DNA from: Alphaproteobacteria bacterium
Lineage (GTDB): Bacteria > Pseudomonadota > Alphaproteobacteria > WRAU01 > Hepatincolaceae
Reading direction: 5' to 3'
Length of the DNA stretch: 64,000 nt
Assembly: GCA_009780035.1 (NCBI GenBank)
Contig: WRAU01000001.1
Span: 186,001 to 250,000, forward strand
Program-made: the position numbers and the translations under genes
Shown here: positions 12,198-41,522 of the stretch, in pieces
Position numbering within the stretch: the stretch's first letter is position 1
Layout: each line of letters begins with the position of its first letter
Notes under the pieces: model-generated
What the model saw: only the letters and a program-made list of their open reading frames with translations
Told to the model about the DNA's origin: nothing
Databases searched by the model: none

Positions 12198-12258
12198 TTG
12201 TAAAATTATCAATAAAGATACAAATACCGCAATAATATATCAATATCTTAATAAAAAC

Positions 12259-12286
12259 TTGCCTTACCCCCCCCCCATGATATTCT
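12259..12286 (+). promoter_or_regulatory. Promoter with a ten-C homopolymer in the -35/-10 spacer
   Basis: TTGCCT at 12259-12264 and TATTCT at 12281-12286 are separated by 16 bases, ten of which are an unbroken C run (12267-12276). The GTG start of the first outer-membrane gene is 30 bases beyond. The same layout, with a shorter C run, precedes the paralogous operon at 41335. Twenty bases after the C run are identical between the two copies. Slippage in the run would alter spacer length. The hexamer assignment is by eye. Confidence 0.55.
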
Positions 12287-12316: not shown

Positions 12317-13285
12317 GTGGTACGATCTGTATTATTTGTAACGGTATTTATTATTTTTTTGCTTATTAGCAAGTCTTATGCAGAATTTTATTTTTCTGTT
12401 GGCGGTTCATTAAATCAAACCGATAAACTAAAATATAAAGCTGTATCACAGAAGCCGCTTTTTGAAAACTTCAGCATTACTAATACTTTTGCCCCTGTTG
12501 ATGAAATTGTTTGCCCCAGCTGTGTTTATGGCGCCGGAGCAGTAAGATGGGATATTCATAAAGTAGTTTCCATAAGCGAATCCCTAAACTATACCCAGTT
12601 AGATAATAATTTAGATATCTCTTCAAAATTAAGCAATCAAGGAATTCCATCGTATAACCTAGCGGTTGGCTATAAAATTAGGAATTTTAGAATTGAAAGT
12701 GAGTTTAAATACACGGCTTTTAATAGTAATTTAGTATCATTAAATACAAATATTAATGTTAATAATAATACAAGCATTGCAAGTGAGTTTTATTGCGTAG
12801 CCGCAGCAGGAAGCAGCAATAATGATCAATTTCTTGATAGGTGTAATGCCGAATATTCCGCATATAACTCTACAGAAAATATTTCTAGCAATTATAATAT
12901 TTATGCCGATTTACTAGAATTTACAACATTTGGAGAAGCTCCTTATGTTAATGCAGCCAGCAAAGTTATGTATAGTTTTATTAATTTTTTATATGATGTG
13001 CCTCTATCACAATCTTTTGGACTTTTTACCGGCGTAGGCCTGGGAGCAGCATATTATAAATTAATAACTGCCACCAACTTGCCGCTTAACTTAAATGGCA
13101 ATGCCACAGCGATGGCTTATCAGTATAAACTTGGTGCTTACTATAATATTTTAGGCTACGATAATTTTCGTTTTTTGGTATCGCTTACGAAAATTAATTC
13201 TGCAAAATTTAAGTTTAAAAATTTTGAAGCTGCTCCAATAAACAGCCGTAGTGTTGATTTTGGCTTAATGTATATTATCGGGTGA
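12317..13285 (+). CDS. Outer-membrane beta-barrel protein A1 (paralogue of 40385-41335)
   Basis: 322 residues with a signal peptide (hydrophobic to about residue 20, then SYAEFYFSVGGSL). Alternating short strands and Asn-rich loops, plus a C-terminal VDFGLMYIIG strand, indicate a barrel. It aligns along its length with the protein at 40385-41335: shared features are AEFYFS/AEIYFS after the signal, a CPSC/CSKC pair near residue 55, a YC...C loop, and SFGLFTGVGLG-like strands near the end. It distantly recalls rickettsial P44/Msp2 surface antigens, but that is only an impression. GTG start with AGGG upstream; four-base overlap with the next gene. Confidence 0.75.
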   Translation: MVRSVLFVTVFIIFLLISKSYAEFYFSVGGSLNQTDKLKYKAVSQKPLFENFSITNTFAPVDEIVCPSCVYGAGAVRWDIHKVVSISESLNYTQLDNNLDISSKLSNQGIPSYNLAVGYKIRNFRIESEFKYTAFNSNLVSLNTNINVNNNTSIASEFYCVAAAGSSNNDQFLDRCNAEYSAYNSTENISSNYNIYADLLEFTTFGEAPYVNAASKVMYSFINFLYDVPLSQSFGLFTGVGLGAAYYKLITATNLPLNLNGNATAMAYQYKLGAYYNILGYDNFRFLVSLTKINSAKFKFKNFEAAPINSRSVDFGLMYIIG

Positions 13286-14406
13286 ACATAGTGAAAAATA
13301 TTGTAATTATTTTTGTTATTTGCTTTCCCGCATTCTTAAACGCTGCCGGTTTTTATATCAGCGTAGGGACAGGCTATAGTATTTCTGGCAGCAGCGATAT
13401 AAATGTTGGCAATATTGGGCTGAGGGACACTTCCATTAGCCGCAGTAGCACAGTGGTAGATAAAACGATTCTAGCAGATACAGATGGTATAGATACCGGC
13501 ATTGATGGGGCAGTTAGAATGGTGATAGATACCGCCACCGCTACGCACTATTCTAGCCTGTTAAAAGCAGCTTCTTATAATAAAGCAATAAAAAATACAG
13601 CTTATTCTGGCAGCATAGGCTGGGCTTTTAAAAATATGCGGATAGAAGCAGAGCTAAAAAATGCGGTTTTACAAATACAGCCAAAAAGTTCTGTTTATGA
13701 TGTAATTATGAGCAGAGATTGGGAGAGCCTAATAACCAGTTATTGCGTAGTAGGACACCAAACTGGCACTACCGCTTCTTCATGCGCAAAGAATGGAATG
13801 CAAGTTGATATTAGTGAATGCCCTGATTTAAGCAATCTTGGTCCTACACATAATCCTACATGCCATAAAAATGAAACAACTATGAGCGGACAAACAGGGG
13901 ATACCGCTATTAACGATATTATTGTAGATGGCAATAATGCCGATTTTGCTTTTAAAGCTGCCAATATAAATATGAATAACTATTTAGGTTTTATGAATTT
14001 TATATACGAATTACCGGTAAGTAAAAGTTTTACTTTATTTACCGGAGTTGGTTTTGGCTATGGAAGTTCCTCCATTAGCGGAGCAGTATTGCCGAAAACT
14101 AAACAAGCATTTTCTTATCCTGCTTATCAATATAAAATGGGAATGTATTATTCTATGACATCACATATAGATATAACTATTAATTACGCTAATATTAATA
14201 TGATTGGGACTGTGAAAAGGACAGATATTATTATTAAAGATACGGCTTTGCAATCTATCGACTTTGGTTTGCGGTATAATTTTTCTAAACGCAGCCCTAC
14301 TTTCTTTGAGGACTATAACTATAAAAAAATAGCGCAAAAATATGTAGATATTTTTTCTCTTCCAGCCCTAGATAATAATGGAAGTAAAAGAATAAAAAAA
14401 TATTAA
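13282..14406 (+). CDS. Outer-membrane beta-barrel protein B1 (paralogue of 39312-40379)
   Basis: 374 residues. A signal peptide ends near ALNAAGFYISVG. The rest is barrel-like, closing with a near-terminal strand DFGLRYNFSKRSPTFFEDYNY that is almost identical in the paralogue at 39312-40379. The middle holds a cysteine-containing variable loop (YCVVG...SCAKNG...ECPDL). Other shared blocks are SSVYDVIM/SSIYDVIL, FMNFIYELPVSKSFTLFTGVGFGYG-like strands and YPAYQYKMGMYYSMTS. It starts with GTG overlapping the A1 stop (GTGA), so the two are translationally coupled. Confidence 0.75.
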   Translation: MNIVKNIVIIFVICFPAFLNAAGFYISVGTGYSISGSSDINVGNIGLRDTSISRSSTVVDKTILADTDGIDTGIDGAVRMVIDTATATHYSSLLKAASYNKAIKNTAYSGSIGWAFKNMRIEAELKNAVLQIQPKSSVYDVIMSRDWESLITSYCVVGHQTGTTASSCAKNGMQVDISECPDLSNLGPTHNPTCHKNETTMSGQTGDTAINDIIVDGNNADFAFKAANINMNNYLGFMNFIYELPVSKSFTLFTGVGFGYGSSSISGAVLPKTKQAFSYPAYQYKMGMYYSMTSHIDITINYANINMIGTVKRTDIIIKDTALQSIDFGLRYNFSKRSPTFFEDYNYKKIAQKYVDIFSLPALDNNGSKRIKKY

Positions 14407-22122: not shown

Positions 22123-22950
22123 TTATTTTTTAAATTTATCGAGATTCCTAACCCACTTGTATAAGTCTTCCTGCTGAATTTTTAGATGCTTACCGCGCAG
22201 ATTTTCTAAAGTAGGGCGCCGTGAAGAAAGGTCTGGAATTTTTTTATTAATAATTCCCCTAAAAATAACGCAAGATCCCATATGAAACAACCCATGCTGA
22301 TCAAAATGTGACCTTAAGATTCGCTGCAGATCGTTGGCAGAAAAATCTAGGTTAAACCACTCGCCTTGACTGTTTTTGTTCTTTATATAATTAAGGGCAT
22401 TTTTTTTATGATGCAAGCCAAGATATGGTGCGGATATGCCAAAAACAATTCCGCCGTCATTAAGAAGGTTCTTAATTTTTACCATAAATTCTTCTCGGCT
22501 TCCTTGTATTTTATCTAAAGCAAAATTTAGAGAAACCGAATCAAATTTCTTATTTGGCAGATGAGAGTAGTTAATATCAAAAACAGAGGTTTGGATTCGG
22601 CAAAAACTGCCGTCAAACATTTTTTTTATATCATCTAAAGAATCCATATCGCTATCAAGGGCGGTAATAATAGGAAAGCTATCCGATAAGCGATGGGCAT
22701 TTTTTATCATAAGTCCGTGAAAAGGAAAAACTTCTAAATGGTTCCCCCCCATAAACATATAGCTTTCCTGCATATTCTCTAAGGGGCAGTTAAGATTTGA
22801 TAAATTTTTAAAAGTTTTTCTGTGAATTACAGCCATAGCAATATCATCACGAAGCTGTATAAATCCTGCTCCTAATGAGGCGAATAAATCTTTAGAGTAT
22901 TTTAATCCATAGATTAATTTTGCAGGTGAAAGATTCTTAAAAATTTTCAT
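22123..22950 (-). CDS. Putative SAM-dependent methyltransferase-fold protein
   Basis: 275 residues. The layout resembles class I methyltransferases: an N-terminal helical part, a MFMGGNHLEVFP segment where the SAM loop would be, FPIITALDSDMDSLDDIKK for the second strand, FDSVSLNFALDKIQGSREEFMVKIKNLLNDGGIVFGIS as the post-motif region, and a C-terminal substrate lid. The usual GxGxG loop is degenerate, so activity is uncertain. It is convergent with nothing and ends in a 245-base gap before the porin promoter. A terminator of the upstream small gene separates the two. Confidence 0.55.
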   Translation of the reverse strand: MKIFKNLSPAKLIYGLKYSKDLFASLGAGFIQLRDDIAMAVIHRKTFKNLSNLNCPLENMQESYMFMGGNHLEVFPFHGLMIKNAHRLSDSFPIITALDSDMDSLDDIKKMFDGSFCRIQTSVFDINYSHLPNKKFDSVSLNFALDKIQGSREEFMVKIKNLLNDGGIVFGISAPYLGLHHKKNALNYIKNKNSQGEWFNLDFSANDLQRILRSHFDQHGLFHMGSCVIFRGIINKKIPDLSSRRPTLENLRGKHLKIQQEDLYKWVRNLDKFKK

Positions 22951-39311: not shown

Positions 39312-40379
39312 CTACTTTTTAAGCAAAGGCAGACTGAAGATTTTTCTATAGTTATAGTCTTCAAAAAAAGTAGGGCTTCTGCTTGAAAAGTTATATCTTA
39401 TGCCAAGTTCTACAGATTGAATATTGTAATCGGCTACAGATAGATTAGCCTTTTGAACTTTTCCTATCATGTTAATGTTAGAATAGTTTAAAGTAATATC
39501 AGTATTACTTGTTAAAGAATAATATATGCCCGCTTTATACTGATAAGCAGGATAAGTAATTTGCCGCGATTCTATTGAAGCTATGCCGTATCCTAAGCCG
39601 ATGCCATTATATATGGCGATGTTTTTGCTAAGCGCTAATTCATATATAAAATTAGCAAAAACTAAAATGTTATTGCTATTTATATTTGCGGTGCTAAAAA
39701 TTGCTGAATCTACATCAGCAGAAAACATTGGACTGCCTGAATGATTTATTGTTATATTATCAAAATTGTAGGAATTTTCTTCAGATATATTTGTAATTTT
39801 AAGCCAGCATTCAGAGATAGTTGCAGATTCAGATGTAGGGCAGTTTGCATAGTTCGAATCTGACGGATCAACTTGAGTGCCATTCGGCAATCCTCCTGAT
39901 CTGCAAGGAGTCATCAAACTGCCTTGATACGCCGAGCAGTAAGCTGATATAATTTCACTATAGTTTTTTTGTAAAATAACATCATAAATAGAACTTTTAG
40001 GTTTTATTTTTAAAATAGTATATTTTAATTCGCTCTCAAAACGCAAATTTTTAAAAGCATAACCGATGTTTAAACCAATAATAGGGGCAATTGTAAAATC
40101 GCTATAAGAAATTTCTTTTAATATGGAAGTATAATCACTAACTGTAGCAGCATCTTGAATTATTCTAGTTGCTGACCTATTCTCTTGATAAATAGTATCA
40201 TCACTATGGTTTGTAATAGTTTGCTGATAAGTAGTCTGCTGATTAAGATTGCTTACTTTAATATTGTTATTACTGCTTAAAGAAGCCCCTGCAGAACCGC
40301 CGACATAAAAACCATTGGCATTTAGAGCTGAGCTTATGGGGATAACTAAAAGCATTATAAAGAATATACAAGTTTTCAT
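39312..40379 (-). CDS. Outer-membrane beta-barrel protein B2 (paralogue of 13282-14406)
   Basis: 355 residues. Signal peptide ends near SALNANGFYVGGSAG. It matches B1 in SSIYDVIL, FANFIYELALSKNIAIYNGIGLGYG, ITYPAYQYKAGIYYSLTSNTDITLNYSNINMIG and the closing strand LGIRYNFSSRSPTFFEDYNYR. The central loop with four cysteines (YCSAYQGSLMTPCRSGG ... NCPTSESATISECW) differs from B1 and may be surface-exposed. It is five bases downstream of A2 and convergent with the M16 gene, 17 bases between stops. Confidence 0.75.
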   Translation of the reverse strand: MKTCIFFIMLLVIPISSALNANGFYVGGSAGASLSSNNNIKVSNLNQQTTYQQTITNHSDDTIYQENRSATRIIQDAATVSDYTSILKEISYSDFTIAPIIGLNIGYAFKNLRFESELKYTILKIKPKSSIYDVILQKNYSEIISAYCSAYQGSLMTPCRSGGLPNGTQVDPSDSNYANCPTSESATISECWLKITNISEENSYNFDNITINHSGSPMFSADVDSAIFSTANINSNNILVFANFIYELALSKNIAIYNGIGLGYGIASIESRQITYPAYQYKAGIYYSLTSNTDITLNYSNINMIGKVQKANLSVADYNIQSVELGIRYNFSSRSPTFFEDYNYRKIFSLPLLKK

Positions 40380-40384
40380 TTTCC

Positions 40385-41335
40385 CTACAGCAAATACATT
40401 AAATTAAAATCAATACTATTGTGCGAAATAGGCTGCATGGTAAAATTACTAAATTTAATATCTCCTATGGTATTAATGTGGGTAAAAGACAGCAGTAAAC
40501 GAAAACTATCACTAATGTTATAATAAGCACCTGTTTTATACTGATAAGCAGGGGCGGCGGCATTTCCTTTTAAATCTATTTCTAAATTAGAAGAGGTGTT
40601 CAATTTTATTTGAGCGTATCCAATACCTAATCCTCCAAAAAAACCAAAATAATTACGGAAAACAGGAGCATCATAGAAAAAGTTCAAAAAGTAATAACTA
40701 ATATTATTGGCAAAATTAATATAAGAAGCCTCGCCATTGCTTTGCGGAATTAAGCTGAATAAATCCTCAGAAAAATTGAAGCTGTTTTCATAAGTTGTTG
40801 TGGAATTTAGCACTGAATAATTGTTTCTGCAAATATCTGGATCATCACCAAGTCCGCCTTCGCAATAGTGCATGTTGTTTATAATTATAGACTGCTTAGC
40901 ATTAAAATTAGTTGGCAAACTATTGAATTGTTTTTTAGAATTTGCCAGTCTATATTCTCCCTCAATTCTAAAATTTTGTTTAACCCTATAGCCCATGGCA
41001 AAACTATAAGCATAGCTGGCAGGAAGATTTATTTGAAAACCAGATGCAGAGTAATTGCTGGTTTCATTTTTGATAGTTTGTCTGTATATTATAAAGTCAT
41101 GCGTATCGGTGCTTACCCCATTACCCCCTGTGCATTTACTGCAAATTACTATGGGATTTTCAGTAATAGAAGACATGCTGGTAAAATCTTTATATAGTTT
41201 TACATCATCTTTAGCATTTATTTCTAAATTATTAGTTTTGTATAAAGAAGCTCCAGCAGAAAAATAAATTTCAGCAAAAGATTCACTTATCATTAAAATA
41301 ATGAAAGCCATTATAAACAATATAAATCTAGCCAT
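40385..41335 (-). CDS. Outer-membrane beta-barrel protein A2 (paralogue of 12317-13285)
   Basis: 316 residues. Signal peptide up to about SESFAEIYFSAGASL. It matches A1 over most of its length (AEIYFSAGASLYKTNNLE versus AEFYFSVGGSLNQTDKLK, a CSKC versus CPSC pair, YQYKTGAYYNI versus YQYKLGAYYNI, and a final FNLMYLL strand). Extracellular-loop-like parts are the most divergent. It is the first gene of the second two-gene operon and has the C-tract promoter described at 41364-41390. Confidence 0.75.
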   Translation of the reverse strand: MARFILFIMAFIILMISESFAEIYFSAGASLYKTNNLEINAKDDVKLYKDFTSMSSITENPIVICSKCTGGNGVSTDTHDFIIYRQTIKNETSNYSASGFQINLPASYAYSFAMGYRVKQNFRIEGEYRLANSKKQFNSLPTNFNAKQSIIINNMHYCEGGLGDDPDICRNNYSVLNSTTTYENSFNFSEDLFSLIPQSNGEASYINFANNISYYFLNFFYDAPVFRNYFGFFGGLGIGYAQIKLNTSSNLEIDLKGNAAAPAYQYKTGAYYNISDSFRLLLSFTHINTIGDIKFSNFTMQPISHNSIDFNLMYLL

Positions 41336-41363: not shown

Positions 41364-41390
41364 AGAATATCATAGGAGGGGGGAGAGCAA
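41364..41390 (-). promoter_or_regulatory. Promoter with a C run in the spacer (copy 2)
   Basis: On the minus strand TTGCTC (41390-41385) and TATTCT (41369-41364) are 15 bases apart. The spacer holds six consecutive C residues within a longer pyrimidine stretch, plus ATGA next to the -10. The 20 bases at 41354-41373 are identical to 12277-12296 upstream of the first operon, and a CAATAATATATCAATAT block 5' of the -35 is also shared. The ATG of A2 is about 28 bases beyond the -10. Confidence 0.55.
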
Positions 41391-41522
41391 CTTTTTTTCT
41401 AATATTGATATATTATTGCAGTATTTTTATTATAATATAACACCATTGCAAATATTTTTAAATTTGATAAAATTATATGGCAGAGGGCGTAGGCAGGGCA
41501 TTAAAATAAAAATGGTGGGAAT

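Follow-up and report, generated by a model that had tools for sequence, protein, structure and literature searches.

A ten-C tract in the promoter spacer of a paralogous outer-membrane operon: a candidate for slippage-driven surface variation in a probable Hepatincolaceae-like gut symbiont

The promoter of the Neisseria meningitidis gene opc contains a poly-C tract (Sarkari 1994, as cited in PMC5084427 and PMC3447861). Tracts of 11 and 12 Cs give different levels of opc expression, and the tract showed no variation among 89 colonies of a repair-proficient meningococcus but varied in a mutS strain (PMC3447861). For porA of N. meningitidis, expression varies with the spacing between the -35 and -10 elements, as the title of van der Ende 1995 (via PMC5084427) indicates. 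In Bordetella, the fim2, fim3, and fimX promoters combine a "fim box" with a C-stretch, and one extra base in the stretch accompanies a 3.8-fold reduction of the fimX transcript (PMC1891110). The PF01617 surface antigens of Ehrlichia and Anaplasma are multi-copy, with several copies intact, and vary by gene conversion or by differential expression of tandem copies (PMC4534519). Slippage-driven surface variation has mostly been studied in bacteria of vertebrates, which face antibodies.

The locus described here lies in a window of 64,000 nucleotides, the whole stretch of DNA that was analyzed, which is AT-rich (33% GC) and belongs to a genome of 1.42 Mb. The source is most likely a member of the Hepatincolaceae gut-symbiont lineage. 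"Candidatus Hepatincolaceae" (order and family WRAU01 in GTDB) live outside host cells as symbionts in the guts of arthropods and tardigrades; the HepAv genome has 1.34 Mbp and 29.5% GC, and sugar PTS transporters occur in the family (PMC9992710; PMC11724238). A PTS IIBC gene is present in the window, and a complete sister genome in the family has 1,340,442 bases and about 30% GC. In a limited check of the open-licence literature, no report of such variation was found for the lineage; the term "phase variation" is absent from PMC11724238 and "homopolymer" from PMC9992710. The outer-membrane operon promoter is a candidate for an opc/porA- and fim-like case in a lineage for which no report was found. 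If this holds in what is likely a symbiont of the arthropod gut, whose host lacks adaptive immunity, it would suggest selective pressures other than antibodies, for instance phage, innate immunity, or a change of niche.

The operon of interest (copy 1) comprises two genes on the forward strand. Gene A (12317..13285) starts with GTG and encodes 322 amino acids, with a signal-like N-terminal segment that was read from the sequence and ends in ...SKSYA/E. The product is a putative Surface_Ag_2-like outer-membrane protein, and its match to PF01617 (E 1.1e-4, 22.2 bits) lies barely over the cut-off of 22. Gene B (13282..14406) overlaps the end of gene A and encodes its operon partner, a putative beta-barrel outer-membrane protein whose match to OMP_b-brl (E 1.6e-4) falls under the Pfam cut-off. 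Gene B also shows weak paralogy to gene A. Four close paralogues of gene A (39-44% identical to that of copy 1) are present, and the A and B pair occurs five times in the genome: at 12317 and, on the minus strand, at 41335 of the window, once on contig 17 (copy 3), and twice on contig 2. In copy 2, the gene A paralogue (40385..41335, minus strand) is 40% identical to that of copy 1, and the gene B paralogue (39312..40379, minus strand), taken from the list of open reading frames, has a weak match at G000:C1:225393-225776. A sixth, more distant paralogue is a single gene (G000:C1:173,081-173,980). Outside this genome, protein and profile searches of named genomes, viral contigs, and 58 relatives returned no relatives of gene A except marginal fragments (E 6e-4 to 6e-6).

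Upstream of copy 1, a -35-like hexamer TTGCCT (12259..12264) precedes a spacer, TACCCCCCCCCCATGA, of 16 bases, which contains an uninterrupted run of ten Cs (C10; 12267..12276), as read directly from the letters. The spacer is followed by the hexamer TATTCT (12281-12286), and TGA stands ahead of it, forming an extended -10, TGA-TATTCT (12278..12286). A preliminary description of this DNA had reported the two hexamers 16 bases apart with ten Cs between them, and its coordinates and letters are exact. The sequence pattern suggests that TTGCCT and TATTCT serve as the working promoter of the copy 1 operon. Each hexamer matches the consensus at 4 of 6 positions (8 of 12 together), and both are therefore weak. 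A generic consensus scan did not list this promoter, and promoter-like sites in that scan were as frequent in shuffled DNA. Because the hexamers are weak and the scan omits them, the assignment relies on conservation among paralogues: four of the five pairs retain the pattern TTGYYY, and the extended -10 has the same sequence in copies 2 and 4. TATTCT was chosen as the -10 because the other candidate, TATGAT, would leave a spacer of just 10-13 bases. An RpoH-type promoter, in which CTTG stands 17-18 bases from its -10, does not fit the observed spacing of 12-15.

No C/G run in the window or in the entire genome is longer than C10; the second longest in the window is C7. Under first-order Markov statistics, 0.006 C/G runs of at least 10 are expected in the window and 0.14 in the genome. 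Genome-wide, 4 runs of at least 9 (0.72 expected) and 8 of at least 8 (3.7 expected) were observed under the same model. Stretches of 13 bases with at least 9 Cs make up about 2e-4 of those in the window, or roughly 2 in 10,000. Of the 8 runs of at least 8, 5 are intergenic (P ~2e-4 against a non-coding share of 8.8%, a figure from the window), and each of the 5 is flanked by promoter-like boxes oriented toward the gene that follows. Compared with random non-coding flanks, the p values of the box matches are 0.0155 (C10), 0.095, 0.072, 0.093, and 0.001, with a combined value of about 6e-5 for a small set (n=5) and a null that covers box matching only. The phasome work in Neisseria takes G/C homopolymers of 9 or more as slippable (PMC5953494), and the C10 between TTGCCT and TATTCT is above this length.

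The label "copy 1" in the preliminary description proved apt, since a second promoter lies on the minus strand at 41364..41390, where TTGCTC and TATTCT flank a 15-base spacer, TCCCCCCTCCTATGA, with an interrupted tract. All five pairs have a C-rich stretch between the -35-like and -10-like boxes, with 8-10 Cs within 15-18 bases. The stretches are C10 in copy 1, CCCCCCTCC in copy 2, CCCCCCCC in copy 3, CTCACCCCTCC in copy 4, and CCTCCCCTCCC in copy 5. Spacer lengths for copies 1 to 5 are 16, 15, 16 (an uncertain assignment for copy 3), 18, and 18; copy 5 has a poor -10, TAGTTA. Unbroken runs of at least 8 occur in only two copies, namely C10 in copy 1 and C8 in the contig-17 copy; the tracts of copies 2, 4, and 5 contain T or A interruptions, which should make them stable. 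Over 75 nucleotides, the promoters of copies 1, 2, 4, and 5 are 67-79% identical, which exceeds the identity of the coding DNA (56-61%) in five of six pairwise comparisons. The exception is the pair of copies 4 and 5, at 67% for the promoter and 71% for the coding DNA. The promoter of copy 3 is more diverged, and the distant single paralogue has a similar promoter that lacks the C-stretch.

A conserved box, CGCAATAATATATCAATAT (12228..12246, forward strand), lies 12 bases ahead of the -35 of copy 1 and is a candidate activator or UP-type site. Copy 2 carries the version TGCAATAATATATCAATAT (41402..41420, minus strand) with one mismatch. Within three mismatches of CGCAATAATATATCAATAT, the genome contains six sites, four at outer-membrane operon promoters and two away from them, and a reversed-pattern control gave two. 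The box is clear, 11-12 bases from the -35, in every pair but copy 3, which is diverged. Since this distance is fixed while the -35/-10 spacer ranges from 15 to 18 bases in copies 1, 2, 4, and 5, the variation in spacing resides mainly in the C-rich stretch. Just upstream of copy 3 (L003, contig 17), a palindrome, TTAGCAATATTATTGCTAA, replaces the box, and the GC-rich stretch GCCGGCTTGCGCCGGTATGACGG adjoining this palindrome resembles a dispersed repeat.

A C homopolymer inside the promoter of an outer-membrane protein is found in opc and, to judge by sequence, in copy 1. Unlike opc, copy 1 belongs to a family of two-gene operons with five paralogues and a conserved upstream box, is found in an AT-rich genome of another lineage, and encodes unrelated proteins. 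The likeness to porA lies in the proposed variation of expression through -35/-10 spacing. The porA tract is a poly-G, and porA is a single porin gene, whereas copy 1 is a two-gene operon with paralogues and an upstream box. As in the Bordetella fim genes, the promoters of a set of surface-type paralogues combine a common upstream box with C-stretches that differ in length from copy to copy. The Bordetella fim promoters depend on the activator BvgA. They differ from the promoters described here, which have a -35-like TTG box and drive genes for outer-membrane proteins rather than fimbrial subunits. Next to the analogy to opc and porA drawn in the preliminary description, the box and C-stretch of the Bordetella fim genes are an equally close parallel. 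Multi-copy PF01617-type surface proteins are shared with Ehrlichia and Anaplasma, with the caveat that the Pfam match here is just over the cut-off; unlike the tandem copies of those genera, the pairs here are dispersed and have C-rich promoters.

Slippage at C10 that alters the -35/-10 spacing, and hence the strength of the operon, is the best explanation of these features and, on balance, a fairly probable one. In this mechanism, slipped-strand mispairing during replication would add or remove Cs at C10, and the number of Cs would set the distance of the -35, and of the upstream box, from the extended -10. A change in this distance would alter the transcription of both surface-protein genes, producing graded surface variation. 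On this view, the length of C10 would vary within the population, and such variation would be predicted to alter expression. Switching would be strongest in copy 1 (C10), with the contig-17 copy (C8) switching less, and it is probably limited to these two because the tracts of the other three copies are interrupted. The on/off switching proposed earlier is therefore retained in part: a conserved promoter of a surface-antigen/beta-barrel-like operon does contain the tract, and other contingency-like G/C tracts occur in the genome, but graded levels are expected instead of a strict on/off state. Weighed against slippage are the three interrupted tracts, the weak hexamers, the finding of no more than marginal fragments of gene A relatives outside this genome, and intact mismatch repair, together with the constancy of the opc tract in the repair-proficient meningococcus. 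MutS and MutL are intact in the source genome, and both are found in all four genomes of the family. The long tracts are therefore not put down to defective mismatch repair, and slippage rates may be modest.

The C-richness that persists in the copies unable to slip suggests a further role besides slippage. Copies 2, 4, and 5 remain C-rich despite the T and A interruptions, and this would be expected if the spacer were a fixed regulatory or structural element common to the outer-membrane operons, either a regulator site or a special DNA shape, with the perfect C10 as one variant that switches little. The near-specificity of the upstream box for these promoters, which fits a regulon, and the intact mismatch repair agree with such an element. 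However, no fixed binding motif is kept in the C-rich spacers, since the interruption sites and the spacer lengths differ; the similar promoter of the sixth paralogue does without the C-stretch; and unrelated promoters of the source genome have runs of G, not C, at the equivalent position. A fixed element is a rather unlikely alternative to slippage. It is quite improbable that C10 arose by chance as a neutral homopolymer in non-coding DNA and that the flanking hexamers are not the promoter. The weakness of the hexamers and the equal frequency of promoter-like sites in shuffled sequence would suit chance, but the rarity of such runs under the Markov expectation, the retention of C-richness and boxes across paralogues, and the enrichment of runs in promoter spacers do not. 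An assembly or sequencing error in the length of the homopolymer has very little probability: homopolymer lengths are error-prone, but an error of one or two bases cannot create a C-rich spacer, independent copies agree, and long open reading frames fill the window.

Potentially slippable tracts elsewhere in the genome are consistent with slippage at C10. The reading frame of a GT8 glycosyltransferase gene changes precisely at a run of nine Gs (G9; G000:C8:43895-43903; L085:3396-3404), and its two halves match consecutive regions of PF01501 (1-27 and 53-128), making this tract a candidate switch for a surface glycan. Two further promoter-like arrangements carry G runs in the spacer: TTGATT-15-TAAACT with G9 (L084:3383-3391) precedes a multicopper oxidase gene, and TTGACT-18-TAGAAT with G8 (L082:3544-3551) precedes a gene for a 156-amino-acid protein without a Pfam match. 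An acyltransferase-3/SGNH gene has an in-frame G9 in its coding strand (L082:7006-7014), with GGG directly before YLGVDIFFV. In copy 5, the start ATG of gene A is out of frame with the remainder of the gene across a T9 in the signal-peptide region (L005, just upstream of 2418, minus strand; G000:C2 ~53.3 kb).

In the sister genomes G001-G003, type I and type III DNA methylase genes have G9-G11 tracts inside them or immediately upstream (L090, L097, L098, L099, and L100), and the frames of the L097 methylase gene meet at the G tract. These tracts are candidate phasevarions. In one sister genome, G8 occupies the spacer of TTGACA-14-TATACT, and no other intergenic run in the three sister genomes lies between good boxes. 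Taken together, the promoter-spacer runs, the split GT8 gene, and the methylase tracts suggest that slippable G/C tracts are in use in this lineage, and their pattern, on circumstantial grounds, resembles that of contingency loci. Tentatively, Hepatincolaceae-like symbionts of invertebrate guts might possess a full set of such loci, in which C-rich spacers form an expression ladder of outer-membrane operons, some slippable and some locked, alongside genes for glycosyltransferase, acyltransferase, and DNA methylase (phasevarion) that can be switched as well; this wider proposal is possible, if somewhat doubtful. Within the window, a C7 run on the forward strand (22744-22750), which is G7 in the coding strand, lies inside a methyltransferase-like open reading frame (22123-22950, minus strand).
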